Assembly: GCA_017403185.1 (NCBI GenBank)
Contig: JAFQON010000005.1
Location: 1-47,123, forward strand
DNA from: Clostridia bacterium
Lineage (GTDB): Bacteria > Bacillota > Clostridia > Oscillospirales > Acutalibacteraceae
Length of the DNA: 47,123 nucleotides
Direction: 5' to 3'
In this document: positions 3,957 to 16,289 of the stretch, in pieces
Position numbering within the stretch: position 1 is the first letter of the stretch
Layout: each line of letters starts with the position of its first letter
Made by a program: the position numbers and the translations under genes
Notes under the pieces: generated by a model
Told to the model about the DNA's origin: nothing
Databases searched by the model: none
The model's input: the letters and a program-made list of their open reading frames with translations, nothing else

Positions 3957-4076
3957 GCTTCCTCTGATGAGGAAGCTGTCCGAAGGACTGAAGGAGAGAT
4001 GATTTTGCAAAGAGTTGTTTGTTCTCTCCCTCCGTCTTTTGCTTCGCAAAATCCACCTCCCTCGTCAGAGGGAGGC
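3957..4076. repeat. pair of inverted two-hairpin repeats
   Basis: The left unit (+) has stem GCTTCCTC/GAGGAAGC (3957-3976, loop TGAT), then GTCC-GAA-GGAC (3978-3988) and a purine-rich tail GAAGGAGAG. The right unit is on the minus strand: CCTCCCTC/GAGGGAGG (4056-4075), then TTTTGC/GCAAAA (4037-4051) whose apex is also GAA on that strand, and a tail GACGGAGGGAG. The same architecture recurs at 24749-24782. The right unit ends 22 bp before luxS, close to its translation start. Confidence 0.7.
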
Positions 4077-4098
4077 AATGAATTCAAAGGAGACTGAC

Positions 4099-4551
4099 AT
4101 GAACAGAATAACAAGCTTTACCGTTGACCATGACCTTCTTACGGAGGGAATTTATGTTTCACGCATCGACGGCGACATCACAACCTATGATATGAGAACA
4201 AGAGTGCCCAATTCCGGCGATTTTATGGACACGACAACTGCCCACACGGTTGAGCATATGTTTGCAACCTTTGTGAGAAATTCCGAGATAAAGGACGATG
4301 TTATCTATTTCGGCCCCATGGGCTGCAGAACGGGATTTTATCTGCTTGTGCGCAATGCGGATAACGCAAAAATCCTTGAAATAACAAAGAAAATCCTTGC
4401 CGATATCATTGCGTATGACGGCGAGGTTTTCGGCAACACAAAAAAAGAATGCGGCAATTATCTTGACCTTGACCTTGAAAAGGCAAAGCAGGAGTGCCGC
4501 AGATATCTCAAAGCACTTGAAGCGGAGCAGACTTTTGAATATAAAGCATAA
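4099..4551 (+). CDS. luxS: S-ribosylhomocysteine lyase (AI-2 synthesis)
   Basis: Cleaves S-ribosylhomocysteine to homocysteine and DPD, the precursor of autoinducer-2, as part of the activated methyl cycle. The 150 residues match the family's usual ~150-157. The metal motif HTVEH (His49, Glu52, His53) is followed by FGPMGCRTGFYL with the catalytic Cys76, and the third metal ligand Cys118 sits in ECGNYLDLDL. I chose the ATG at 4099 because AAAGGAG (4086-4092) is 6 nt upstream and because the product then begins MNRITSFTVDH, as in the family. An ATG at 4078 would lie directly at the edge of the repeat. The alaX gene follows 12 bp later. Confidence 0.96.
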   Translation: MNRITSFTVDHDLLTEGIYVSRIDGDITTYDMRTRVPNSGDFMDTTTAHTVEHMFATFVRNSEIKDDVIYFGPMGCRTGFYLLVRNADNAKILEITKKILADIIAYDGEVFGNTKKECGNYLDLDLEKAKQECRRYLKALEAEQTFEYKA

Positions 4552-4563
4552 GAGGTAGAGAAA

Positions 4564-5715
4564 ATGACACAGAAACTTTACAACGAAAACCAATATATAA
4601 AAGAATTCACCGCTTGCGTTGTATCGTGCACCGAAGGGGAAAGGGGCTTTGAGGTTATCCTTGATAAAACCGCATTTTTTCCCGAGGGGGGCGGTCAGCC
4701 GGGCGATACGGGCTTTATCGGCGGTGTTGAGGTTATCGACACCGTTGAGAGAGGCGACGATGTTGTGCATATCTGCGCTGAGAAGGTAAGCGGAGAGGTT
4801 GAATGCAGCCTTGATTTTGAGAGAAGATTTTCTTTTATGCAGCAGCACACGGGTGAGCATATTTTTATGGGCTTTATCCATAAAATGTGCGGTGCCGAGA
4901 ATGTGGGCTTTCACATCGGCGAAAGCGGCGTTACCGTTGATTTGAGCGTTCCCGTTACGGGCGAAATGCTTGCCGATGCCGAAAGGCTTGCCAATGAGGC
5001 GATTTATAAAAATCTGCCCGTAAAAGCGGTTTATCCTGCCGATGACGAGCTTGAAAATTACGAATACAGAAGCAAAAAAGAGATTAACGGTCAGGTGCGC
5101 CTGATAGATATTGAGGGCAGTGATTTGTGCGCCTGCTGCGGCACCCATGTTGCCTTCACGGGTGAAATCGGAATAATCAAAATCGTTTCAGCCATGAAAT
5201 ACAAAAAAGGCGTGCGCCTTACCCTGCAGATAGGCAGAAAGGCGTTTGAGGATTATGCCGATAAGCATGAAAATGTTCACCGTATTTCCGTTGCACTCAA
5301 GGCAAAGCCCGAGGAGGTGAGCGAGGCGGTTGACCGTGTTATGGCTCAGCAGAAGGAAATGAGATTCAGATATACGCAGCTCAAAAGGAACTATTATGAG
5401 ATTTATGCCGAGGATTGCGACGGCGAAAAATGCTGCTTGTTTGATGACAGCGGTGATGCTGCCGATGCAAGGATGCTGTGTGATATTCTTGCACAAAAAG
5501 CCTTTGTTGCGGCTGTTTTTTCGGGCAATGATGAGGATGGCTACAAGTATGCCGTTGCAAGCCGCACATACGATGTGAGAAAGGTTGCGGCAGAGCTCAA
5601 TTCCTGCTGTGCAGGCAGAGGCGGCGGCACTGCCGAGATGGTTCAGGGCTCGCTTGCAACATACAGGGATATGATTGAATGCTGCTGGAGAGAGATTGAG
5701 CTTAATGACGAATGA
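4564..5715 (+). CDS. alaX: alanyl-tRNA editing protein (AlaX-L type, with DHHA1 region)
   Basis: A free-standing relative of the AlaRS editing half that deacylates mischarged Ser-tRNA(Ala) or Gly-tRNA(Ala). 383 residues. The N-terminal barrel includes AFFPEGGGQPGDTG, typical of the second AlaRS domain. The zinc-binding editing site shows HTGEH (His95, His99) and C-x-G-T-H (Cys191, His195). A helical linker (about 235-280) leads to a DHHA1-like C-terminal domain ending in CCAGRGGGTAEMVQGS, a glycine-rich motif of that domain. The AGAGG ribosome site overlaps the sequence just after the luxS stop, so luxS and alaX are probably co-transcribed. The 3' end overlaps the next gene by 11 bp. Confidence 0.93.
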   Translation: MTQKLYNENQYIKEFTACVVSCTEGERGFEVILDKTAFFPEGGGQPGDTGFIGGVEVIDTVERGDDVVHICAEKVSGEVECSLDFERRFSFMQQHTGEHIFMGFIHKMCGAENVGFHIGESGVTVDLSVPVTGEMLADAERLANEAIYKNLPVKAVYPADDELENYEYRSKKEINGQVRLIDIEGSDLCACCGTHVAFTGEIGIIKIVSAMKYKKGVRLTLQIGRKAFEDYADKHENVHRISVALKAKPEEVSEAVDRVMAQQKEMRFRYTQLKRNYYEIYAEDCDGEKCCLFDDSGDAADARMLCDILAQKAFVAAVFSGNDEDGYKYAVASRTYDVRKVAAELNSCCAGRGGGTAEMVQGSLATYRDMIECCWREIELNDE

Positions 5716-6499
5716 AGAGAAGCTTCTGATTGCCAGAATCGAAGATAAAATGCGCCTTTGCAGTGAGAATTCAATGATAACAAGCAGCGATTTTCTCGAT
5801 ATGCACGAGCGTTCCGTCGTGTCACAAATCCGCCTTCGGTATTCCGATGTGAAAATAGTTTTTTACGGCGTTTTTGATGATGCGGAGCGCACCGTTGCGG
5901 TGTTTCTGCCTGAGTATATTGAGGCTGAAAATTCCGCTGAGCTTGAAGCGTATTTTGACGAAAATCCCGACGATAATCCGCTTGCGGCAATAAGGCTTGA
6001 GAAGGATAAATTTTCGCCTGCTCTCAGCCACCGTGACTACCTCGGAGCCCTTATGGGGCTTGGGATTCGCCGTGAAATGACGGGCGACATCAAGGTGGGT
6101 GAAAACGGCTGTGAATTGATTGTTTTAACCAAAATCGCCCCCTATGTTGCCGATAATATGAGCAAGGCGGGCAGGGGCACTCTGAAGGCTGAAATCATAC
6201 CTGCTTCGCAGGCGAAGAGCGGAGCAAAAGCCTCGGGCGTTCCCGACAGCTTCACCGTCTCCTCAATGAGGCTTGACAGTGTTGTCAAAAATGCTTTTCG
6301 CGTGTCAAGAGGGGATGCAGCGGCGGCGATAGAGGGCGGAGCGGTTTTTGTGAATGATGTTGAGTGCGAAAAGCCCGATAAAAAGGTTGCGACGGGCGAT
6401 AAAATCGTTTTTCGCAGAAAAGGCAGAATTATAATAGACGATTGCTCCTGTGTTTCAAAAAAAGGCAGAGTAATAGTTGAAATAACAAGATTTGCATGA
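5705..6499 (+). CDS. ylmH: YlmH-like S4-domain RNA-binding protein
   Basis: 264 residues, close to the ~257 of Bacillus YlmH. The N-terminal part resembles the YlmH pattern (LSHRDYLGALMGLGIRR, then a GDI-VG--G-E-IV segment). The C-terminal S4 domain (about 187-245) reads SSMRLDSVVKNAFRVSR, GGAVFVNDVE and GDKIVFRRKGR, the surface that binds structured RNA. YlmH-type proteins act in ribosome quality control or cell-division clusters, but here the gene sits with tRNA editing, not with ftsZ/sepF. The ATG at 5705 overlaps the alaX end by 11 bp, which suggests translational coupling; an in-frame ATG at 5675 would add 10 residues and is less likely. Confidence 0.85.
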   Translation: MTNEEKLLIARIEDKMRLCSENSMITSSDFLDMHERSVVSQIRLRYSDVKIVFYGVFDDAERTVAVFLPEYIEAENSAELEAYFDENPDDNPLAAIRLEKDKFSPALSHRDYLGALMGLGIRREMTGDIKVGENGCELIVLTKIAPYVADNMSKAGRGTLKAEIIPASQAKSGAKASGVPDSFTVSSMRLDSVVKNAFRVSRGDAAAAIEGGAVFVNDVECEKPDKKVATGDKIVFRRKGRIIIDDCSCVSKKGRVIVEITRFA

Positions 6500-6504
6500 A
6501 TTCG

Positions 6505-6526
6505 GCGGGCGGCTAAGGCTGCCCGC
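6505..6526 (+). terminator. stem-loop terminator after the luxS-alaX-ylmH unit
   Basis: GCGGGCGGC and GCTGCCCGC form a 9-bp GC-rich stem (one G-T pair), followed by TTCATATTTT. The U-run is weak but the stem is strong and directly follows the gene. Confidence 0.7.
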
Positions 6527-6564
6527 TTCATATTTTAAGTTTATGTAAACTTATATATAAAATA

Positions 6565-6593
6565 TTGACCTTAATGTATAAAACTGATATAAT
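6565..6593 (+). promoter_or_regulatory. rpe promoter
   Basis: TTGACC (6565-6570), 17-bp spacer, TATAAT (6588-6593) with TGA before it (extended -10). A near-consensus housekeeping promoter 29 bp before the rpe start. Confidence 0.85.
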
Positions 6594-6621
6594 AAAATGA
6601 ATTTATAAGGGGGAGTGCGCA

Positions 6622-7293
6622 ATGATTAAAATTTCTCCGTCTGTGCTGGCAAGTGATTTTTCCGCTCTCGGAGCAGAGAGCAAAAGAATGGAAGAGAGCG
6701 GTGCAGATTACCTTCATCTTGATGTTATGGACGGCAGATTTGTGCCGAATATAACCTTCGGTGCGCCCGTTATCAAGAGCATAAGAAATAAAACAGGGCT
6801 TGTTTTTGATGTTCACCTTATGATTGACAAGCCGCTTGAATATATTGAAGACTTCAAAAAGGCGGGTGCGGATATAATCACCTTCCATGTTGAAAGTTCA
6901 TCTCCTGCGGAGCAGACGGTTGATAAAATCCTTGAATGCGGCTGCAAAGCAGGTGTAAGCATAAAGCCCAAAACGGCGGCGGAAGAGGTGCTTCCGCTTC
7001 TTGATAAGCTTTCGATGGTGCTTGTGATGACGGTTGAGCCGGGCTTCGGCGGTCAGTCATTCATGCCCGAAACGATGGAAAAGGTAAAGACCCTGCGCCG
7101 TGAAATCGAACGCAGAGGTCTTGATGTTGATATTCAGGTCGACGGCGGAATTAACGAAAAAACCGTTGAAACCGCAGCAGCTGCAGGTGCGAATGTGTTT
7201 GTTGCGGGCAGTGCCGTTTTCGGTGCGGAGAATGCCGCAAAGGCGATTTCGGATTTGCGCAGCCTTGCTGAAAAGGCATATTCAGCTACCTGA
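6622..7293 (+). CDS. rpe: ribulose-phosphate 3-epimerase
   Basis: Interconverts D-ribulose 5-phosphate and D-xylulose 5-phosphate in the non-oxidative pentose phosphate pathway. The 223 residues match the family. TIM-barrel landmarks are SPSVLASDF at the N-terminus, LHLDVMDGRFVPNITFG (metal-binding His32, catalytic Asp34), FDVHLMI (His65), VEPGFGGQSF (phosphate loop) and the QVDGGI catalytic Asp. GGGGGAG precedes the ATG. Its last 12 bp overlap the 3' end of the convergent mecA-like gene. In Bacillus rpe lies near rsgA and a thiamin pyrophosphokinase gene; neither is seen here. Confidence 0.97.
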   Translation: MIKISPSVLASDFSALGAESKRMEESGADYLHLDVMDGRFVPNITFGAPVIKSIRNKTGLVFDVHLMIDKPLEYIEDFKKAGADIITFHVESSSPAEQTVDKILECGCKAGVSIKPKTAAEEVLPLLDKLSMVLVMTVEPGFGGQSFMPETMEKVKTLRREIERRGLDVDIQVDGGINEKTVETAAAAGANVFVAGSAVFGAENAAKAISDLRSLAEKAYSAT

Positions 7294-7842
7294 CAGCACT
7301 GAAATCGCATTGCTTTCAATAAGATTCCGCCAATGCTCTTTTGTGTGCTCAATGCACAGCTTATCGGCATTGATTATGCGTGAAAACTCCGAAAAATACT
7401 GCTTCAGCCCTCTTGTGTCGCAGAATCCGCCGACTATAAGGCGGTATTTGCCGCCACTCTCAAAAAGGCTGCTTTCGGCGGTGATGCTGCAGCCCTCGGC
7501 AGCACGGCAGAGCGCATCAAGGCTGTCAAATTCACAAATAAAGCATTCGCTTTGTTTTTTCAGAAGATGCTTTTGAGGGTACGCTCTTTTTTTTGAATCG
7601 AGAAGGGTGAAGTTGAGCAGGCATCCGCCCTCATTTTTCGGAATAGCCTCGATTATCATTCTGCGTGTGGGGTCAAGCTCCCTGCCGAGCACCTTGCCTG
7701 CTTCGTCAAGCAGAGTCCATATAACTCTTCTTGTTTCTATTGTGGAATAATCCATATCCTCATATGTAATATCAAGCTCTGCCATGTCCTGCTTTGTCAG
7801 GTCAACGGTTATTCTGTCATCGGCAGTGGAATTAATCTTCAT
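7282..7842 (-). CDS. mecA: MecA-like adaptor protein
   Basis: 186 residues. MecA/YpbH proteins deliver substrates such as ComK to the ClpC-ClpP protease. The N-terminal domain shows the MecA pattern: DDRITVDLTKQDMAELDITYEDMDY, here split as DDRITVDLTKQDM and ELDITYEDMDY, then RRVIWTLLDEAG and a MIIEAIPKNEGGCLL segment. The C-terminal ClpC-binding half (about 100-186) is more divergent but keeps the FEFDSLD-like core (CEFDSLDALCRAA). I chose the ATG at 7842 because GGGAGG lies 8 nt upstream on the minus strand; the longer in-frame extension starts in sequence that carries the promoter. Which protein it targets here cannot be read from the sequence. Confidence 0.85.
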   Translation of the reverse strand: MKINSTADDRITVDLTKQDMAELDITYEDMDYSTIETRRVIWTLLDEAGKVLGRELDPTRRMIIEAIPKNEGGCLLNFTLLDSKKRAYPQKHLLKKQSECFICEFDSLDALCRAAEGCSITAESSLFESGGKYRLIVGGFCDTRGLKQYFSEFSRIINADKLCIEHTKEHWRNLIESNAISVLSGS

Positions 7843-7885
7843 TGTATTGCCTCCCGTAAGTGGTTTGAAATTGTTCTTATGTAAT

Positions 7886-7914
7886 ATTTTATGCTCAACG
7901 GAGCAGGTATGCAA
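7886..7914 (-). promoter_or_regulatory. probable mecA-like gene promoter
   Basis: On the minus strand TTGCAT (7909-7914) and TAAAAT (7886-7891) are 17 bp apart. No equally good promoter is visible on the plus strand for the RnfD-like gene in this gap. Confidence 0.55.
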
Positions 7915-7946
7915 TGAATAAATAATGGAAATACGGGGTGAAAGCC

Positions 7947-8891
7947 TTGTCAGATAAAGAAACAAAAAACAAAACAGTAAGACCGCTCAGGCTTTACGGC
8001 GATTATCTTGTGATGCTTGCGGCGCCGTTTATTCTTGCTCTGAGCGGCTACGGAGCAAGGCCGCTTGCAGTGATATCTGTGGCAATATTATGCGCCGTGC
8101 TCAGCGATATGCTGTTTTGTGTTATTCTTAAAAGAAAATTTTTGCTTAGGGACCTGAGTAATATATGTATCGGAGCGGCAATTGCGCTTATGCTGCCTGC
8201 GGGTGTGCCTCTTTATGTGCCTGCAGTTGCCTCGGTTTTTGCAGTTATAACGGCAAAGGTGCCCTTCGGCGGCTCAATGAGAACGCCCTTTGTGCCTGCA
8301 GCGGCAGGCTTTGCGTTTGTGAGCGTGTGCTTCAAAGAGCAGGTTTTTGATTTTTCGTATAATTCGGCGCAGAAGATGCTTGGTGAGCGTTCGCTCGGAG
8401 CACTTCTTATGCAGGGTAATGCCGTGCGCCTTAATGCAATCAATGTTTTTGACATTATCAGCGGCAATGTTGCGGGGCCGATGGGTGCAGGCTGCGGTCT
8501 GCTTATGGCGGCTTGCCTTGTGTTCCTTCTTTTCAGAAGAAGAGAAGCTCTTCTTGCACCGCTGAGCTTTATTGCCGTCTGTGCATTATATGCGGCAATA
8601 CTGCCGAGAGTCAATGCTTCTGTGTTCACAAGCATTTTTATGGAGCTTTCATCAGGCTCATTGCTGTTTGCGGCGGCATTTCTGCTCAGTGATAATGCGG
8701 CTCAACCAGAAAGAGCAATTACAAAAATTCTTAACGGAGCGGTGTGCGGTCTGTTCTGTATGACAATGCGTGCCGTGGGAACCTATGAGGAAACCGTGTG
8801 CTTTGCCGTGCTGCTTGCAAACGCATTTTCACCCATAATTGATTCGGCTGTTAAAAAGCTTCCGTCAAAGAAAAAGGGGGCTGAAAAATGA
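7947..8891 (+). CDS. RnfD/NqrB-like membrane protein, flavin site apparently lost
   Basis: About 314 residues with some 9-10 hydrophobic segments. RnfD is the FMN-carrying membrane subunit of the Rnf ferredoxin:NAD oxidoreductase. Family marks include SVFAVITAKVPFGG followed by RTPFVPAAAGF (like the GG--RNPFNPA motif) and a C-terminal VCFAVLLANAFSPIID. However, the flavinylation motif (S/T)GAT or QATPL reads SLGALLM here, so the modified Thr seems absent, and the FxLTDP motif reads LLSDNAA. The gene heads a tight set with RnfE- and RnfA-like genes. I prefer the TTG at 7947, because GGGGTG is 6 nt upstream; a GTG at 7938 has no spaced ribosome site. It overlaps the next gene as ATGA. Confidence 0.75.
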   Translation: MSDKETKNKTVRPLRLYGDYLVMLAAPFILALSGYGARPLAVISVAILCAVLSDMLFCVILKRKFLLRDLSNICIGAAIALMLPAGVPLYVPAVASVFAVITAKVPFGGSMRTPFVPAAAGFAFVSVCFKEQVFDFSYNSAQKMLGERSLGALLMQGNAVRLNAINVFDIISGNVAGPMGAGCGLLMAACLVFLLFRRREALLAPLSFIAVCALYAAILPRVNASVFTSIFMELSSGSLLFAAAFLLSDNAAQPERAITKILNGAVCGLFCMTMRAVGTYEETVCFAVLLANAFSPIIDSAVKKLPSKKKGAEK

Positions 8892-9712
8892 GCAACAAGC
8901 TTTCGTTCAGGGATGTATTTGTAAGGGGAGCGGTTATTTTTAACCCCGTGCTCGTGCAGCTTGCGGGTCTGTGCCCCGTCGTGGCGGCTTCAACATCTCT
9001 CAAAAGTGCCGCAATGCTTTCGGCGGTGGCTTTTGCGGAGCTTATCGCCGTGTGCGTTATCGCGAGCGCATTTCTCAAAAAGGTGCCAAGGTGGGTCAGA
9101 ATGCCGCTTTACCTTATCATAGGGCTTGTGCTGATCTGCCCTGTTTTGTGGTATATCGAAACGAAAACACTGATTAATCTCAGCCTGAGCATGAAAATAT
9201 ATATTCCGCTCATTGCGATAAATTCAGTTGTTGCGGTTCACTGTGAGCAGTTTGCGGTCAAAAACAGCGTAAAGCTTGCATTTTATGATGCGGCGGCAGT
9301 CGGCATCGGTGCATCGGCGGTTTTTGTTGCCGTCGGTGTGCTCAGAGAGCTGCTCGGCAGCGCAACAATCGGCGGAATGCCCGTCAATATTCCCGTAACC
9401 TTTAAGGGGATGCTTATGCCCTTCGGCTGCCTTGTCATTCTCGGCTTTGCGGCGGCACTGCTCAAGTCATTCGTATCAAAGAAATACCCCGAATATATTG
9501 AAAACGGCGTTCTTGTTGCAAAAAAAGAGGAGCCGTCGGAGCCTGTTATCACTCAGGAATCGGTTGAAGCCGAAGAACAAACCGATGAAACTTCGTCTGA
9601 GCCGATTAATGAGGATGTGCAGGGCGGAATAAAAATAGGAACACAAGAGGAGATAGATGAATTTTTGAAATCTCTCGGCATAGATACGCAGGAAACGGGG
9701 GATGAGCAATGA
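8888..9712 (+). CDS. RnfE-like membrane protein with acidic C-terminal tail
   Basis: 274 residues with six likely membrane segments in residues 1-195. The N-terminus keeps the family motif NPVLVQLAGLCPVVAAS with Cys29, one of the cysteines that in RnfE/NqrD contribute to the intramembrane [2Fe-2S] centre. The second expected Cys, in the ITNC motif, reads INS (Ser113). RELLGSATIGG and a GCLVILGFAAALLK helix also fit RnfE. Beyond residue ~205 there is an extra ~70-residue Glu-rich, probably cytoplasmic tail ending with GTQEEIDEFLKSLGI, unusual for the ~195-230-residue family. The start overlaps the RnfD-like stop, and the stop overlaps the RnfA-like start (ATGA both times). Confidence 0.8.
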   Translation: MSNKLSFRDVFVRGAVIFNPVLVQLAGLCPVVAASTSLKSAAMLSAVAFAELIAVCVIASAFLKKVPRWVRMPLYLIIGLVLICPVLWYIETKTLINLSLSMKIYIPLIAINSVVAVHCEQFAVKNSVKLAFYDAAAVGIGASAVFVAVGVLRELLGSATIGGMPVNIPVTFKGMLMPFGCLVILGFAAALLKSFVSKKYPEYIENGVLVAKKEEPSEPVITQESVEAEEQTDETSSEPINEDVQGGIKIGTQEEIDEFLKSLGIDTQETGDEQ

Positions 9713-10302
9713 AAATAATTACCGATCTTTTTCTGACGGCATTTTATACCGTTTTTGTTCAGAACCTTGTTCTCAGCTCGGGTCTCGGCATGAGTGAGGC
9801 TTTCAGAGTATCCGCAAAGCCTGGCACCTTCGGCAGAATTGCCGTTATGATATCGGGCTTTTCGGTTGTCACAAGCGCACTGTGCGCTGCCGTCAATATT
9901 TATGCGGTGGAGGCTGAGCTGAGCTATGCGGTGCGTGCTGCGGTATACGGCATAGTGCTTGCTGCTGTTTATGCCGTTGTTGCGATAACGGCAAGGCTTG
10001 TTTTTAAAGCATCGGACAAATTCCTCGGCACTCTCGGAATAGCCGCATTCAACACTCTTGTATTTGCAATTCCCCATATAAATAACTCCGCAGCATATTC
10101 CTTTGCGGGCAGCATCGGCTCGGGTCTCGGTGCGGGCGTAGCATTCATTCTTGCTGCTGCTCTTATCAACAAAGGCTCGCAGCTTATTGCGGAAAACGAA
10201 GAAATCCCCGATGCGTTCAAGGGGACACCTGCAATGTTCTTCTATGTTGCATTGATTTCGCTTGCGTTTGCAGGCTTTACGGACACAAATCTTTTCGGCT
10301 GA
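9709..10302 (+). CDS. RnfA-like membrane protein lacking the FeS cysteines
   Basis: 197 residues, six likely membrane segments, the usual RnfA size. Family traits are an N-terminal VFVQNLVLSSGLGMSEA helix, a central FNTLVFAIPHINN segment and the C-terminal IPDAFKGTPAMFFYVALISL followed by AFAGF, close to the P--FRG...AGLMSLAFMGF of RnfA. The canonical LG-CP motif is gone (SSGLGMS) and the TTNC motif reads AFNT (Thr116). The only cysteine left is Cys59, elsewhere in the protein. If the alignment is right, this subunit cannot hold the [2Fe-2S] cluster of RnfA. It follows the RnfE-like gene with an ATGA overlap and has GGGGGAT as ribosome site. Confidence 0.8.
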   Translation: MKIITDLFLTAFYTVFVQNLVLSSGLGMSEAFRVSAKPGTFGRIAVMISGFSVVTSALCAAVNIYAVEAELSYAVRAAVYGIVLAAVYAVVAITARLVFKASDKFLGTLGIAAFNTLVFAIPHINNSAAYSFAGSIGSGLGAGVAFILAAALINKGSQLIAENEEIPDAFKGTPAMFFYVALISLAFAGFTDTNLFG

Positions 10303-10315
10303 GAGGTGAGTAAAG

Positions 10316-10558
10316 ATGCCTAAAATCGGAAAAATTGAAAAAACTCTTAAGCCGTCACAGCGCAAGAGCATAACCGATTTTTCGGACCGTTTCGGCGAAG
10401 GGCCGAGCTATGAAGAAAAAGCGAGAAACAGAAAAATCATATCCGCCGTGCTGATAACGGCAGGTGTGCTTGCTCTCATCGGTACGGGCTATTTTGTTAC
10501 CGATGTGCTGATTAAAATAACGGAGCTGCCGCCCGAAGCGGTGACAATGCTCGTTTAA
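10316..10558 (+). CDS. small single-span membrane protein of the Rnf-like set
   Basis: 80 residues. A charged N-terminal half (about 1-40, KIEKTLKPSQRKS then SYEEKARNRK) is followed by one hydrophobic helix (about 41-63, IISAVLITAGVLALIG), then a short outer tail. It sits 13 bp after the RnfA-like gene with its own AGAGGTGAG ribosome site. I recognise no family. The position suggests an accessory subunit of the RnfD/E/A-like complex; that is inference from context only. Confidence 0.65.
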   Translation: MPKIGKIEKTLKPSQRKSITDFSDRFGEGPSYEEKARNRKIISAVLITAGVLALIGTGYFVTDVLIKITELPPEAVTMLV

Positions 10559-10584
10559 CTTACTGATTTTTAAGGACTGAAACA

Positions 10585-12441
10585 ATGGATTTTATACCCT
10601 ATAATTCAAGGCTCAGCTGGCACAAAGTGCCGTTTGGCGCAGTGCGTGAGGGCGAAAAGGTAACAATAAGAATCGTGCTTCCCCTGAGCATCTGCTGCAC
10701 GGGAGCGAGCCTTGTAATCAATTCGGACAGCGGCAAATCCGCTGTTTATCCCATGGAATGGGAGCGTTATGAAAAAAATAATGAGGAATGGTGGAGAGTA
10801 AGCTTCACGCCTGAAAAGCAGGGGCTTTATTGGTATCATTTCGCAATCGCCTGCAAGGGCGAAAGCCGCTTGATAACAAGATTTGAAAATTCGACAGGCA
10901 GAATTTCCTCTGACGGCACAAGCTTTCAGCTTACGGTTTATTCAAAGGATTTTCAAACTCCCGATTGGATAAAGGGCTCGGTTATCTATCAGATTTTCCC
11001 CGACCGCTTCCGCAATTCGGGCAGCGAAAAAAACGGCGTGCCTTCAGACAGGGTGCTTCGCTCCGATTGGGGCGGTGAGCCGATGTGGGAGCCTGATGCC
11101 GAAGGGAAAATTACAAAATATGATTTCTTCGGCGGAGATTTCAGGGGCATTGAGCAGAAGCTTGATTACCTTGAATCGCTCGGTGTGGGCTGCATCTACC
11201 TTAACCCGATTTTTGAGGCTCAGACCAATCACCGCTACGATACCGCAAGCTACGAAAACACAGACCCGCTGCTCGGCAGTGAGGATGATTTTTCACACCT
11301 TTGTGCAGAAGCGGAAAAGAGAAATATAAAAATAGTGCTCGACGGCGTATTCAGCCACACGGGTGCAGACAGCGTATATTTCAATAAAGAAAAAAGATAT
11401 GATACGCCCGGTGCTTACAACAGCAAGGAATCGCCGTATTATGATTGGTATAAATTTGAAAAATTTCCCGATAAATACGATTGCTGGTGGGGTGTTGATA
11501 TCCTGCCGGAAATTGATGAAGAGAATGACGGATATATCGAATATATCGCAGGTGAAAACGGAATTCTGCGCAAATGGCTCAGAGCGGGCGCAGGCGGTTG
11601 GCGGCTTGATGTTGCCGACGAGCTGCCCGATAAGTTTCTCGATGCTCTCCGCCGTGCTGTAAAGGCGGAAAAGCCCGACGCATATATATTGGGTGAAGTG
11701 TGGGAGGATGCCTCAAACAAAATCAGCTACAGCCGCAGAAGGCGTTACCTTCAGGGTGCACAGCTTGATTCGGTTATGAATTATCCTTTTGCCGATGCGC
11801 TCATCAGCTTTGCGATAAGCGGCGCTGCAGAGGGCTTCAATGACAAAATAACCGGAATCTGCGAGAATTACCCGAAGCCTGCGGTGGACTGCCTTATGAA
11901 TCACATCGGCACTCACGATACCTGCCGTGTGCTTTCAAGGCTTGCAACCCTCGGCAGATACCGCAGCACCCATCTTGAAAGATATAAAGGCGGCTTGACC
12001 GTCGAGCAGGCGGAATACGGCAAAACTCTGCTGAAGCTTATTTCCGTTATGCAGTTCACTCTTCCCGGTGTGCCCTGCATCTATTACGGTGACGAGGCCG
12101 GGATTGACGGCGGTGAGGACCCTTTCAACAGAGGCTGCTTCCCGTGGGGCAAGGAGGATGCGGAGCTTATTGAGCATTACCGTTTTCTCGGCAGACTGCG
12201 CAAAGAGCATAAGGTGTTTGAAGAGGGAGAATTTGTGCCCGTTTCTGCGGCACTCGGCTGTGTTGCCTATGAAAGACGGAATGATGAAGAGAGAATAATG
12301 ACAGTTGCAAACCGCAACAGCCATTCAATAGTTTATGTTTTGCCCGAGGAGGGCTATGAGGCTCTGTCGGGCGGTACGGTCAGCGGCAGAGAGCTTTATC
12401 TTGAAGGAGAAACTGCGGCAATTTTGATTAAGGTGAGCTGA
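10585..12441 (+). CDS. GH13 alpha-amylase-family glycosidase (neopullulanase/cyclomaltodextrinase-like)
   Basis: 618 residues, no signal peptide, so a cytoplasmic enzyme for alpha-1,4-linked glucans or maltodextrins. An N-terminal beta-sandwich (about 1-125) precedes the catalytic barrel that begins GSVIYQIFPDRF. The four GH13 regions are visible: DGVFSHTG, GWRLDVADE with the nucleophile Asp342, ILGEVWED with the acid/base Glu371, and NHIGTHDTCR with the stabilising Asp445. GVPCIYYGDEAG-DGGEDPFNR is typical of neopullulanase-type members. A C-terminal beta domain ends the protein. AAGGACTGA precedes the ATG. It lies 27 bp after the small membrane gene; its link to the flanking membrane and folate genes is not obvious. 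Confidence 0.93.
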   Translation: MDFIPYNSRLSWHKVPFGAVREGEKVTIRIVLPLSICCTGASLVINSDSGKSAVYPMEWERYEKNNEEWWRVSFTPEKQGLYWYHFAIACKGESRLITRFENSTGRISSDGTSFQLTVYSKDFQTPDWIKGSVIYQIFPDRFRNSGSEKNGVPSDRVLRSDWGGEPMWEPDAEGKITKYDFFGGDFRGIEQKLDYLESLGVGCIYLNPIFEAQTNHRYDTASYENTDPLLGSEDDFSHLCAEAEKRNIKIVLDGVFSHTGADSVYFNKEKRYDTPGAYNSKESPYYDWYKFEKFPDKYDCWWGVDILPEIDEENDGYIEYIAGENGILRKWLRAGAGGWRLDVADELPDKFLDALRRAVKAEKPDAYILGEVWEDASNKISYSRRRRYLQGAQLDSVMNYPFADALISFAISGAAEGFNDKITGICENYPKPAVDCLMNHIGTHDTCRVLSRLATLGRYRSTHLERYKGGLTVEQAEYGKTLLKLISVMQFTLPGVPCIYYGDEAGIDGGEDPFNRGCFPWGKEDAELIEHYRFLGRLRKEHKVFEEGEFVPVSAALGCVAYERRNDEERIMTVANRNSHSIVYVLPEEGYEALSGGTVSGRELYLEGETAAILIKVS

Positions 12442-12444
12442 ATT

Positions 12445-13311
12445 ATGCCAAGAAAACCAAAAAATTTAATGTTCCGCACAACGAGGCAGAACAGCGGCAA
12501 CGATAACAAAAAATTTGCCGCAATCCTCATTGCAAGCGTTGTTCTTATACTTGCCGTTTCGATTTTTGTGATTATGAGCAAGAATGATTTTGATGTGAAG
12601 AATGTTCTCGGCGGCGATGCCGTGTCCGAAACTCAGGCTCAGCCTGTTGATACGCAGGAGAATGAAATCGAAGCGAGCAAAACCTATTTTTTGTGGTGTG
12701 CTGACGATTCGGAGAACAGTCTTTATTTTGCGTGGCTTGTGAATTTCACTTTGCCCGAAAGGCGTGTGACTGTCTGCGCCCTTGACCTTGACACAAGGCT
12801 TGATGAAGCCGGAAGCATAAGGCAGGTATTCAAATCAGACGGTATAAAAGAGCTTGTGAGCTGCATGGAAGCCGCTTTTGAAACGGATATTGACGGCTAC
12901 ATAGGCTCCGATGACGGCAGCTTTAAGTCGATGATAAATTATTTCGGCGGAATTGATATCACCGTGCCTGAGCAGATTGAATACAGAAGCGGAGACCTGA
13001 CCGTAATTCTTGTGAAGGGCAGGCAGAATCTTAAGGGGGATTCGCTCTTCAAGTATCTGAGATATCTCGGCACTCTCGGCGAAAAAGGCAGGAGCCTTCA
13101 GGCGGCTGCTCTCAGCGAAATGCTTGATTTTGTGTTCAAGCCGTCAAATCTTAACCGATGCAGCAGCATTTTTTCCAGAATATCGAACACACTTGAAACC
13201 GACCTTACGATTGTTGACTATTCATCCGCCGAGGAGGGTATAAAGCAGTTTGTTGAAAACGGAATTTCATCCAAACGGACAGCCGATACCCCTGAGGAAA
13301 TGGAAGAATAA
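12445..13311 (+). CDS. LytR-CpsA-Psr (LCP)-like membrane-anchored protein
   Basis: 288 residues. A basic N-terminus and one membrane helix (about 23-44) anchor an outer domain. The segment INYFGGIDITVPEQIEY is the conserved LCP stretch before the polyprenyl-phosphate pocket, and LKGDSLFKYLRYL resembles LxGxxALxYxRxR but lacks most arginines that hold the pyrophosphate in active LCP glycopolymer transferases. It is also short and divergent in its first half (the D-R-DT motif is reduced to LDLDTR). It may therefore be a non-catalytic relative. It starts 4 bp after the glycosidase stop, with AAGGTGAG as ribosome site inside that gene. Confidence 0.65.
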   Translation: MPRKPKNLMFRTTRQNSGNDNKKFAAILIASVVLILAVSIFVIMSKNDFDVKNVLGGDAVSETQAQPVDTQENEIEASKTYFLWCADDSENSLYFAWLVNFTLPERRVTVCALDLDTRLDEAGSIRQVFKSDGIKELVSCMEAAFETDIDGYIGSDDGSFKSMINYFGGIDITVPEQIEYRSGDLTVILVKGRQNLKGDSLFKYLRYLGTLGEKGRSLQAAALSEMLDFVFKPSNLNRCSSIFSRISNTLETDLTIVDYSSAEEGIKQFVENGISSKRTADTPEEMEE

Positions 13312-13322
13312 GAGGAAAAAGT

Positions 13323-14501
13323 ATGAAAAAATTTTTATCAGTTCTGCTGTGCTTAATATGCGTTGCCGTGTGTGCTGCGGTGATTTTTAAGGTTACGGAC
13401 CGTGATGAGCCTGCGGTTAATCCCGATGCAGGTGTGTCACACACACAGTCTGTGCAGCAGATGCAAGAGCTCGGCAGTCCCTATAAATTATACTACGAAA
13501 AGCTCTCTGAAATTGAGAAGCAGGCATATGATAAAATTCTCTCTGAGATTTATTCGATGCCTGAGTCGATAAAGCTGCCCAGAATTGACGCGAATCAGCT
13601 TGACTCGGTTTTTTCGGCGCTTCTTTGCGATAACCCCGATTTGTTTTTTGTGGGCAGAAAGTGCACTCTTGTTACGGAGCTTTTCAGGGTAAGCTGTTCA
13701 ATTGAATATATATTTGACAAAGAGGAATATGAGAGCTGCAAGGCAGAGCTTGACAAGGTGTGCGATAAGGTGATTGCCTCGCTTTCAGACCCCGATGATG
13801 AGTGGCAGACCGAGCTTGAAATTCACGATTATATTGTAGATAACTGTGATTACAAGCTTGTTGAGAATGATCACACCTATTCTTCGGCTTACGGCGCACT
13901 CGTCAACGGCGAGGCGGCGTGTGAGGGCTACTCCAAGGCGGCAAAGCTGCTTTTTGACAGAGCGGAGATAGAGAGCGCCGTTGTGAGCGGGCTTTCTGCA
14001 GGCGCAGACGGCACTCAGGGAGCTCATATGTGGAATGCGGTTAAAATCTACGGTGATTATTATTATCTTGACTGCACATGGGATGACCCGCTCAGCGATG
14101 ACGGCGAGGATGTAAAGATTTACTCTTACTTCAACCTCAGCAACGAAATGATCGCCTCCACTCATTCCGATTTCTCCTATGATTTCGGCTGTGAGGCTAC
14201 GGCTGCAAACTACTATATAAAAACCGGCAGATATTTCAAGACATATGACCGTGACGATGAAGAGGCGGTTGCCCGCATCGTTGCAAGCGAGCTTGATGCG
14301 GGCGGTGATATAATCGAAATCCGCTTTGGCTCAAAAAAGGCGTTTGACAGCGCCGTTAATGACCTGATAAAAGGCGAGCGGATTTATGAGGTGCTGACTC
14401 TTGCAAGGGCAAAAACCAAGGTCAGGTTTTCGCTTGATTCGTTATCTTATTATACCGACCCCGATCTGCTTACGCTGACTATAGTCCCCGAACGCAGTTG
14501 A
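13323..14501 (+). CDS. secreted/membrane-anchored transglutaminase-fold protein
   Basis: 392 residues. The first ~23 residues ([20 protein letters not shown]) are a signal peptide or anchor. Residues ~55-185 are helical and of unknown type. The transglutaminase-like core has [16 protein letters not shown] with Cys200, [10 protein letters not shown] with His235 and [10 protein letters not shown] with Asp250, in the right order for the Cys-His-Asp triad. Such extracytoplasmic proteins are usually proteases or cell-wall-linked enzymes rather than crosslinkers. The C-terminal ~110 residues are unassigned. It follows the LCP-like gene by 11 bp, so the pair may work on the cell surface (inference). 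Confidence 0.85.
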
Positions 14502-14526
14502 TTTATTTGAAAGGAAAGTGCATTCA

Positions 14527-15090
14527 ATGGATAAACAGAGAATAGAAGCGGCTGTGCGTGAAATTCTTATCGCAATCGGCGAGGACCCTGACAGGGAGGG
14601 GCTTGTTGAAACCCCCGCAAGAGTTGCGAGAATGTATGAAGAGATTTTTTCGGGTCTTGAGGATGACCCTACACGCCATCTCAAACTTTTCAACGAAAGC
14701 GGCAACGAAGAGATGGTTGTTGTGAGGGATATCCCCCTTTACTCAATGTGTGAGCATCATCTCATACCTTTTATGGGCAAGGCTCATATTGCCTATATTC
14801 CGTCGGCAGGCAAGGTTATAGGCTTGTCAAAGCTTGCGAGAATTGTTGAGTCATTTGCCAAAAAGCCGCAGCTTCAGGAAAGGCTGACGGCGCAGATTGC
14901 TGATTTTCTTGATGAAAATCTCAGCCCTCAGGGTGTTGCCGTTGTTATTGAGGCGGAGCATTTGTGCATGACAATGCGAGGTGCAAGGGCATCGGGTGCA
15001 AAAACAAGAACCTCTGCCCTCAGAGGCACTATGAGAAGCGATGCAAAGACGAGAGCGGAGGCAATTTCGCTCCTCACCGGAGGCAACTGA
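14527..15090 (+). CDS. folE: GTP cyclohydrolase I
   Basis: Converts GTP to 7,8-dihydroneopterin triphosphate, the first step of folate synthesis. 187 residues, the family length. [21 protein letters not shown], here cut to [18 protein letters not shown], starts the domain; the zinc site shows [11 protein letters not shown] and EHLCMTMRG, and RTSALRG is the substrate-binding end. I chose the ATG at 14527 with GGAAAG 8 nt upstream; a GTG at 14518 overlaps that ribosome site. It is the first of four consecutive folate genes in one transcription direction. Confidence 0.97.
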
Positions 15091-15091
15091 G

Positions 15092-15928
15092 ATGTTTAAG
15101 GCAAGAGGTCACGAATTTCCTTTGGGCAAAAAAACCTATGTTATGGGAATTCTCAATTATACACCCGATTCCTTCTCAGACGGCGGACTTTATAACACCC
15201 CCGAAAAGGCATTGGAGCACGCCCTTGCCATGCAGGCAGACGGTGCGGATATCATAGATATCGGAGCAAACTCGACAAGACCCGATGCCGTCATTCTCTC
15301 TGCAGCGCAGGAGGAGGAAAGGCTTCGGCCCGTAACAGGTGAGCTTTGCGCGAGGCTTGACTGTGCGGTATCTGTGGATACCTTTTATCCCTCATGTGCA
15401 AAGGCTGCGCTTGAGGCAGGTGCGGATATCATCAACGATGTGAGCGGCGTTTTCAATCCGGAAATCGCTCAGCTTTGCAAGCAGTATTCGGCAGGCTATA
15501 TTGTTATGCACAACCCGTGCGGCTCGGCAGAGGTGTCTGAATACCCCAACGGAGCTGTAAATGAAATAAGAAGATTTTTTCTTGATACGCTGACTCTTGC
15601 GGCAAAGGCGGGCTTGCCCAAATCTCAGCTCTGCCTTGATATGGGTCTGGGCTTCGGCAAAGCATATGAGGATAATCTGGAACTTCTCAGGGAAGCTGAA
15701 TGGCTCAAAATTCAGGGCGTTGCCCTGCTTGCGGCAGGCTCGAGAAAGCGTTTTATCGGCAGGGCATCGGGCGTTGAAAACAGTGCGCAAAGAGATGCGG
15801 GCACCGTTGCGGCTCACACTGCTGCGATTGCGGGCGGGGCGGATATAATCCGTGTTCACAATGTTTTTGCAGGCGTTCAGGGTGCAAGGGTAGCCGATGC
15901 AATTTACAGAGGTAAAGCAAATGGATAA
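15092..15928 (+). CDS. folP: dihydropteroate synthase
   Basis: Joins 6-hydroxymethyl-dihydropterin pyrophosphate and p-aminobenzoate to dihydropteroate; the sulfonamide target. 278 residues. The TIM-barrel marks are MGILNYTPDSFSDGG (pyrophosphate loop), DIIDIGANSTRP, SVDTF, INDVSG, YIVMHN, DMGLGFGK and LAAGSRKRFIGR, then IIRVHNV. GGAGG (15079-15083) lies 8 nt before the ATG at 15092; the frame is open further upstream, but that stretch belongs to folE. It starts 1 bp after the folE stop and overlaps folB by 8 bp. Confidence 0.97.
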   Translation: MFKARGHEFPLGKKTYVMGILNYTPDSFSDGGLYNTPEKALEHALAMQADGADIIDIGANSTRPDAVILSAAQEEERLRPVTGELCARLDCAVSVDTFYPSCAKAALEAGADIINDVSGVFNPEIAQLCKQYSAGYIVMHNPCGSAEVSEYPNGAVNEIRRFFLDTLTLAAKAGLPKSQLCLDMGLGFGKAYEDNLELLREAEWLKIQGVALLAAGSRKRFIGRASGVENSAQRDAGTVAAHTAAIAGGADIIRVHNVFAGVQGARVADAIYRGKANG

Positions 15929-16289
15929 AATTTTAATCAGAAATCTGAAGATATATGCGTATCACGGCGTTCATTCCGAGGAAAAGGAAAACGGGCAGAA
16001 CTTTATTTTGGATATCGATGCAGGTGTTGATATCGCTGAGCCGTGTGTGAGCGATAATGTTGACGATACGGTCAGCTATTCGGCAATAATTTATGAAACG
16101 CAGAGAATATTCACTTCGCAGAAGGATGATTTGCTTGAGAGGGCAGCGCAGAGAGTGGCAGACGGACTTTTTGAAAAATTCGCAAAAATTCATACTCTGC
16201 GGATTCTTCTTAAAAAGCCCGAGGCACCCATAAAGGCGGATTTTGATTTCGTCGGCGTTGAAATTTTCAGAGAGAGGGCAAAAAAATGA
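15921..16289 (+). CDS. folB: dihydroneopterin aldolase
   Basis: Cleaves dihydroneopterin to 6-hydroxymethyl-dihydropterin and glycolaldehyde. 122 residues, family length. MDKILIRNLKIYAYHGVHSE carries the YHGV--EE motif with the active-site Glu, and the C-terminal half shows ILLKKPEAPIKADFDFVGV with the catalytic Lys region. AGAGG (15908-15912) is 8 nt before the ATG. The gene overlaps folP by 8 bp and folK by 4 bp (ATGA). Confidence 0.96.
   Translation: MDKILIRNLKIYAYHGVHSEEKENGQNFILDIDAGVDIAEPCVSDNVDDTVSYSAIIYETQRIFTSQKDDLLERAAQRVADGLFEKFAKIHTLRILLKKPEAPIKADFDFVGVEIFRERAKK

Follow-up and report, generated by a model that had tools for sequence, protein, structure and literature searches.

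An RnfD/E/A-like membrane protein set of an Acutalibacteraceae bacterium and its relatives that has lost most of its predicted redox-centre residues

The window analyzed here (the whole stretch of 47,123 nucleotides from a Clostridia bacterium of the Acutalibacteraceae, assembly GCA_017403185.1, contig JAFQON010000005.1, positions 1–47,123, forward strand) holds, at 7947–10558, three genes for membrane proteins resembling RnfD, RnfE and RnfA (hereafter D', E' and A'), followed by a short fourth gene, S, which is included in this span, correctly delimited in an earlier note on the same DNA. Judging by homology, D'E'A' belongs to the Rnf/Nqr superfamily by descent, and alignments lend good support to the loss of its redox function. 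The set might be an old offshoot of Rnf that works without redox chemistry, probably as an alternating-access device coupled to ions, a proposal for and against which we find the case evenly balanced.

All three genes lie on the plus strand in reading frames that overlap one another: D' (314 aa, 7947–8891) matches Pfam NQR2_RnfD_RnfE (PF03116, 2e-51), E' (274 aa, 8888–9712) and A' (197 aa, 9709–10302) match Rnf-Nqr (PF02508, 2.5e-25 and 5.1e-18, respectively), the NCBIfam rnfD, rnfE and rnfA models match them far under their curated cut-offs, and A' also matches the structure chain 9eri_A at 1.2e-8. The start of D' was chosen by eye, the candidates being TTG at 7947 (with GGGGTG upstream) and GTG at 7938. 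E' ends in an acidic tail (9479–9712; 77 residues, of which 22 are D/E and six K/R), the length of which is very variable in relatives.

The cofactor columns were mapped from the A. woodii Rnf complex (PDB 9eri) via the canonical proteins of the window genome itself, with residues named as in the excerpted text of PMC11889175, and just one of the four [2Fe-2S] cluster Cys was found in the window set. In A', Ser29 and Thr116 occupy the cluster positions, in agreement with the earlier note, which had read SSGLGMS and AFNT there and considered both Cys lost; in E', Cys29 (8972–8974) is retained and Ser113 (9224–9226) stands at the second cluster Cys, also as previously claimed. At none of the lost sites do the alignments place another Cys or Thr. 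Of the flavinylated Thr motif of D', read as SLGALLM in the earlier note, most is gone, but the change at the acceptor itself is only Thr to Ser, so that a hydroxyl is kept there (in the alignment, the Ser of RSLG, Ser149, codon 8391–8393, stands opposite the Thr of ATPL).

That most redox-centre residues have been lost is borne out well beyond the window and is no chance reading, the same pattern being repeated in 108 non-redundant loci. Among the paralogues, A' C25 is retained in 0/101 rows, A' C113 in 9/99, E' C25 in 69/106 and E' C108 in 0/105, and therefore two of the four cluster Cys are the most that any A'/E' pair can retain. The FMN-accepting Thr of D' persists in 5/108 (Ser takes its place in 91/108) and the remainder of its motif in a small minority (D192 in 11%, A197 in 2% and P199 in 12%); of the riboflavin residues, Asn123 is found in 16/108 and Asp249 in 78/108, and the RnfB-contact residues are mostly lost as well (K32 in 9%, R154 in 2% and E158 in 27 rows). 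Canonical rows retain the cluster Cys, the FMN-Thr and the riboflavin residues in 11 or 12 of 12.

The loci behind these counts numbered 117 before redundancy was removed, the remaining 108 being the window, 36 from genomes of its own order and 71 from named genomes, a profile scan of which had given 121 confirmed loci, 80 of them retained. D', E' and A' are all present on one strand in 101/108, the other seven running off a sequence end. The named-genome loci are labelled mostly Clostridia, Oscillospiraceae, Ruminococcaceae or Clostridiaceae (with “Bacillota” for two and “uncultured bacterium” for one). Candidatus Limimonas coprohippi (Acutalibacteraceae) is among them, as is Candidatus Fimenecus excrementavium, and many come from ruminant or horse gut. 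Within the window's genus, the RnfA-like paralogue was found in 40 of 44 other genomes (G016, G018, G024 and G033 being those in which it was not), 38 of which also have a canonical-level RnfA match; it occurs in other genera too, and an order-wide search of 394 genomes pointed to another family, f26, whose genomes usually have a second RnfD-like match. In a class-wide scan of 391 genomes with an A' profile, which very diverged forms may escape, spread beyond the order found no support: the matches listed reach at least 174 bits only in nine genomes (f1 and f26), the next best being 130 bits, and 21/21 of the lower-scoring matches inspected (L185–L205) are canonical RnfA with both Cys motifs. 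No description of a Cys-less Rnf paralogue appears in the excerpts of the literature matches listed.

The set shows no sign of relaxed constraint in the two close pairs of loci used for dN/dS, comparisons against the window itself being saturated (dS mostly above 1): the values for D', E', A' and S are 0.07, 0.15, 0.04 and 0.02 in the pair L067/L066 (rpe, 0.05) and 0.12, 0.13, 0.09 and 0.13 in L070/L071 (rpe, 0.08). D'E'A'S is thus under purifying selection. A recent pseudogene or an assembly artefact is ruled out by these ratios and by the recurrence of the set, at a common place, in the 108 non-redundant loci.

The earlier note had also claimed that rnfB, rnfC and rnfG are absent around the set, and none was seen adjoining D'E'A', either in the open reading frames overlapping 4000–16000 or by Pfam on the near neighbours. 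The second, canonical set whose existence it had left to be checked is indeed there: another contig of the window assembly (80.3% complete) carries a complete rnfCDGEAB with ApbE nearby, and this operon holds the one RnfC_N gene of the genome, its one FMN_bind gene (the canonical rnfG) and, as rnfB, one of its three FeS-domain genes; the genome has two RnfD-family genes. The paralogue seems independent of canonical Rnf, because a genome of another bacterium (G259; 99% complete, 2 contigs) has it with no other RnfD match. Provision of canonical RnfB, RnfC and RnfG to D'E'A' from elsewhere is ruled out by the single complete canonical operon here and by G259 being without a canonical RnfD.

The set belongs to a larger system, a point that the earlier note missed: some lineages have an RnfC-like subunit besides, and most an anchor or DUF4015 partner. 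S (10316–10558, plus strand), the nature of which the note did not give, is an 80-aa protein with a single predicted span that resembles the N-terminal anchor of larger proteins (U) encoded 3' of A' in relatives, with which it shares a cytoplasmic motif and the span. All four U proteins tested carry DUF4015 (1.7e-26, 6.6e-26, 4.4e-36 and 5.3e-8), and a predicted model of the one from L108 (pLDDT 83.6) consists of a membrane helix and a barrel that comes closest to PDB 4s1a (Cthe_0052; profile 1.6e-33, Foldseek 7.8e-14), followed by PgaB and many glycosidase barrels by fold. A Pfam search of S itself gave no match, the DUF4015 barrel included, and a DUF4015 search of the window genome, at its 80.3% completeness, gave none either; the window genus has the anchor without the barrel. 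The DUF4015 profile matches 37 loci (two of them, L100 and L118, with proteins of only about 150 aa) and the short-S profile 38. S/U was found in 72/93 usable loci by profile and in four more by eye (76/93), and in 75/75 loci where it and A' were both found it lies at most 156 bases 3' of A' on the same strand. At six loci (L121, L125, L126, L134, L138 and L142), a cysteine desulfurase-like gene occupies the S/U place directly 3' of D'E'A', followed in three of them (L121, L134 and L138) by a ThiI-like gene (named by eye). The RnfC-like gene (RnfC') precedes D' in 15/108 loci (by about 1 kb in L063), and its products have lost the GLGGAGFPT loop (FMN/NADH) and the NAAECEPF motif in 15/15 and retained both CxxCxxCxxxC 4Fe-4S motifs in 15/15.

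The residues reported for the Na+ path give a mixed picture, several being retained and others not. A' N112 is present in 99/99 rows, sharing top conservation among the columns with one Pro (Asn115, in the numbering of the window protein, is invariant), and E' keeps R67 in 102/105, E115 in 90/105 and L103 in 85/105; N107 (95/105), which is not among the residues named in the excerpted PMC11889175, was added here, and the window's E' retains Asn112, Arg71 and Glu120. Of the columns identical in 11 or all 12 of the canonical rows, the median retention is otherwise 0.09 (A') and 0.59 (E'). Residues have been gained, too: throughout the clade without RnfC' (78 A' rows), the canonical GxCPFLG has become GxSEAIR or a near variant, in what looks like a rebuilt loop at the old [2Fe-2S] site, with Ser/Thr at the Cys place in 75/78, Glu30 directly after it in 78/78 (Pro stands there in 11/12 canonical rows) and Arg33 in 75/78, the Ser29–Glu30 codons of the window's A' being at 9793–9798 (plus strand). 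In D' of the same clade, Glu233 (236 if counted from GTG at 7938) is present in 85/85 rows.

The suggestion of the earlier note that the core has been turned to a non-redox or different task is supported by the largely lost cofactor residues, several kept ion-site residues and the new invariants, and the outcomes that the note named as refuting it did not come about; as to its example of ion or solute transport, transport by D'E'A' is what we infer from residue patterns. In the mechanism proposed, the A'/E' pair would still alternate between inward- and outward-open states, a Ser/Thr/Asn/Glu-lined ion site would stand in for the [2Fe-2S] cluster, and the set would be driven by an ion gradient, not by electrons. 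The anchor S, or the DUF4015-bearing U, would occupy the place of RnfG, coupling ion movement to an envelope partner, and RnfC', where present, would be an Fe-S subunit on the cytoplasmic side with a possible sensing or gating role. Such a set could add a third functional class to the Rnf/Nqr superfamily, an alternating-access machine that is redox-free and gradient-driven, with RnfG replaced by an anchored envelope protein and ion flow driving or gating work on the outer face; we advance this wider claim only tentatively and consider it doubtful as it stands, our confidence having been lowered by the confinement of the new Glu to a single clade and by the loss of several ion-path residues.

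A number of observations weigh against the redox-free, ion-coupled proposal as a whole. In A', the columns of RnfA Y105, T73 and E126 are variable, T110 is mostly Ala (82/99) and the gate L108 mostly Ile/Met, the E' gate L22 is Leu in just 18/106 rows, and Asn112 of A' may owe its conservation to a helix break and nothing else. Of the 23 A' rows that do not belong to the RnfC'-less clade, two have the new Glu and 16 have Arg, Thr or Lys there. S/U was recognised by neither profile nor eye in 17/93 usable loci. Furthermore, the Fe-S motifs of RnfC' suggest that some relatives still handle electrons, and D' may still bind a flavin, given the acceptor-site Ser in 91/108 and Asp249 in 78/108; ApbE is available in the genome.

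Among the other explanations, a redox-free membrane scaffold, in which D'E'A' would move no ions and would serve to keep the envelope protein S/DUF4015, and any RnfC', in place, agrees with the conserved S/U anchor, with its retention in the window genus even without the barrel, and with the loss of many ion-entry residues. We nevertheless judge it rather unlikely, since a scaffold needs neither the polar residues at the old cluster site, which rank with the best-conserved residues of the family (such as A' N112 and E' R67), nor the new invariant Glu found there in one large clade; the loci without a recognisable S/U do not favour it either. Continued redox work with other cofactors (the 4Fe-4S clusters of RnfC', a flavin on the D' Ser, or haem replacing the lost centres) could draw on the intact RnfC' motifs, on the acceptor Ser together with ApbE, and on the one E' Cys kept in 69/106 rows, yet RnfC' is found in only 15/108 loci and not in the window genome, whose single RnfC_N gene is canonical, the FMN/NADH loop of RnfC' is lost, the flavinylation motif is mostly gone apart from the acceptor, the sole FMN_bind gene is the canonical rnfG, and the RnfB-contact residues have mostly disappeared, all of which makes this improbable in our opinion.

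That D'E'A' is an accessory of canonical Rnf, swapping with its RnfD/E/A subunits under some conditions, would sit well with the co-occurrence seen in the genus (38 of the 40 paralogue holders), but G259 has the paralogue alone, the residues contacting RnfB are mostly lost and the two sets lie on separate contigs in the window genome, so this explanation is given very little weight. Hardly any credence is left for the view that the set is what remains of a duplicated rnf operon in decay: although rnfB, rnfG, rnfC and the DUF4015 barrel are progressively absent, the dN/dS values of about 0.02–0.15 in two close pairs, the open, overlapping frames, the one place retained across many genomes and the newly invariant residues all speak against decay.

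As for the origin of the set, six genomes from a single family (f47; L236–L241) that lies outside the order, picked by comparing U and RnfA positions, all carry rnfCDGEAB with all four Cys motifs and then a DUF4015 gene (with one gene between in three), and mecA is divergent upstream, one gene away, in L237 and L239 (three of the six have upstream sequence). Canonical operons inside the order (L049 and L054) also have all four Cys and a DUF4015 gene after rnfB, and the DUF4015 proteins following complete operons in these eight loci have a predicted N-terminal span. Since these canonical operons show DUF4015 and some of them mecA, the ancestral arrangement may have been mecA – rnf – DUF4015. 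The excerpts of the literature matches listed make no mention of such a link between DUF4015 genes and rnf operons. U matches occur in 55/196 class genomes, and against a general link stand five other DUF4015 regions read (L243–L247), which show no rnf, and G497, in which the two are about 16 kb apart.

In a maximum-likelihood tree of RnfD proteins (60 rows; midpoint rooting only, with long branches), 19 canonical rows group together (100/100) with L165 as the sister of their clade (100/98), and the remaining paralogues branch outside. The window genome's own canonical RnfD groups with the canonical proteins; hence the paralogue did not arise from it by recent duplication. L165 (G112, family f9) is a C'D'E'A'U set near canonical sets by score. 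A partial locus of family f15 (L047:145-756) encodes a diverged RnfA-like protein, in which one Cys has shifted position and the second is missing, followed by a DUF4015 gene, and is a possible intermediate. L057 (G078:C9) is a complete rnfCDGEAB, the second in its genome, with GCGSF for GICPF in RnfA and NG for NC in RnfE, so that some of the cluster ligands have changed in an otherwise full operon.

The conserved place of the set is marked by rpe (6622–7293, plus strand; Pfam 8.6e-76), a neighbour not thought to belong to the system, and by a divergent mecA-like gene (7282–7845, minus strand; MecA 1.1e-16), which are found in 90/99 and 70/99, respectively, of the loci having at least 2.6 kb upstream. 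Downstream, S is followed in the window genus and its close relatives by an alpha-amylase family gene (10585–12441, plus strand; Pfam 4.6e-52) and by LCP-family and transglutaminase-like genes (window 10585–14501 for all three). A promoter/terminator scan returned 15 and 14 sites vs shuffle means of 8.6 and 9.8, and its result was not used.

Set against the Rnf complex proper (RnfABCDGE; 9eri, 7zc6 and 8ahx), the system has homologous D, E and A, the gene order C-D-E-A, an RnfC homologue in some relatives and the reported ion-site Asn/Arg/Glu, but it differs in having no RnfB or RnfG at the loci read, no full [2Fe-2S] ligand set, no FMN motif and, in RnfC', no FMN/NADH loop, and in the S/DUF4015 anchor protein added in most loci. 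A precedent may be seen in Na+-NQR, for which the excerpted PMC4014512 proposes an origin by neofunctionalisation of an rnf operon copy after the loss of rnfB, and whose RnfC homologue, NqrA, has no redox cofactors according to excerpts of PMC12174285; unlike D'E'A', however, Na+-NQR retained its membrane redox chain (2Fe-2S, two FMN and riboflavin, in the same excerpts). The U proteins, in turn, match DUF4015 (PF13200) proteins, PDB 4s1a and the PgaB C-terminal domain by profile or fold, and differ from them in being membrane-anchored and encoded in an Rnf-like operon, with a putative glycosidase-like barrel that the window is without.

Which Rnf subunits move the ion is disputed, the excerpted PMC11889175 assigning ion movement to RnfA/E vs earlier RnfD/NqrB proposals, and D'E'A' would offer a natural separation-of-function case, because it appears to have dropped the intramembrane redox centres and yet retained several of the RnfA/E ion-site residues. 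The link between D'E'A' and S/U gives a functional lead for DUF4015 proteins and, if the proposal made here is true, an Rnf core can be diverted to a non-redox task.

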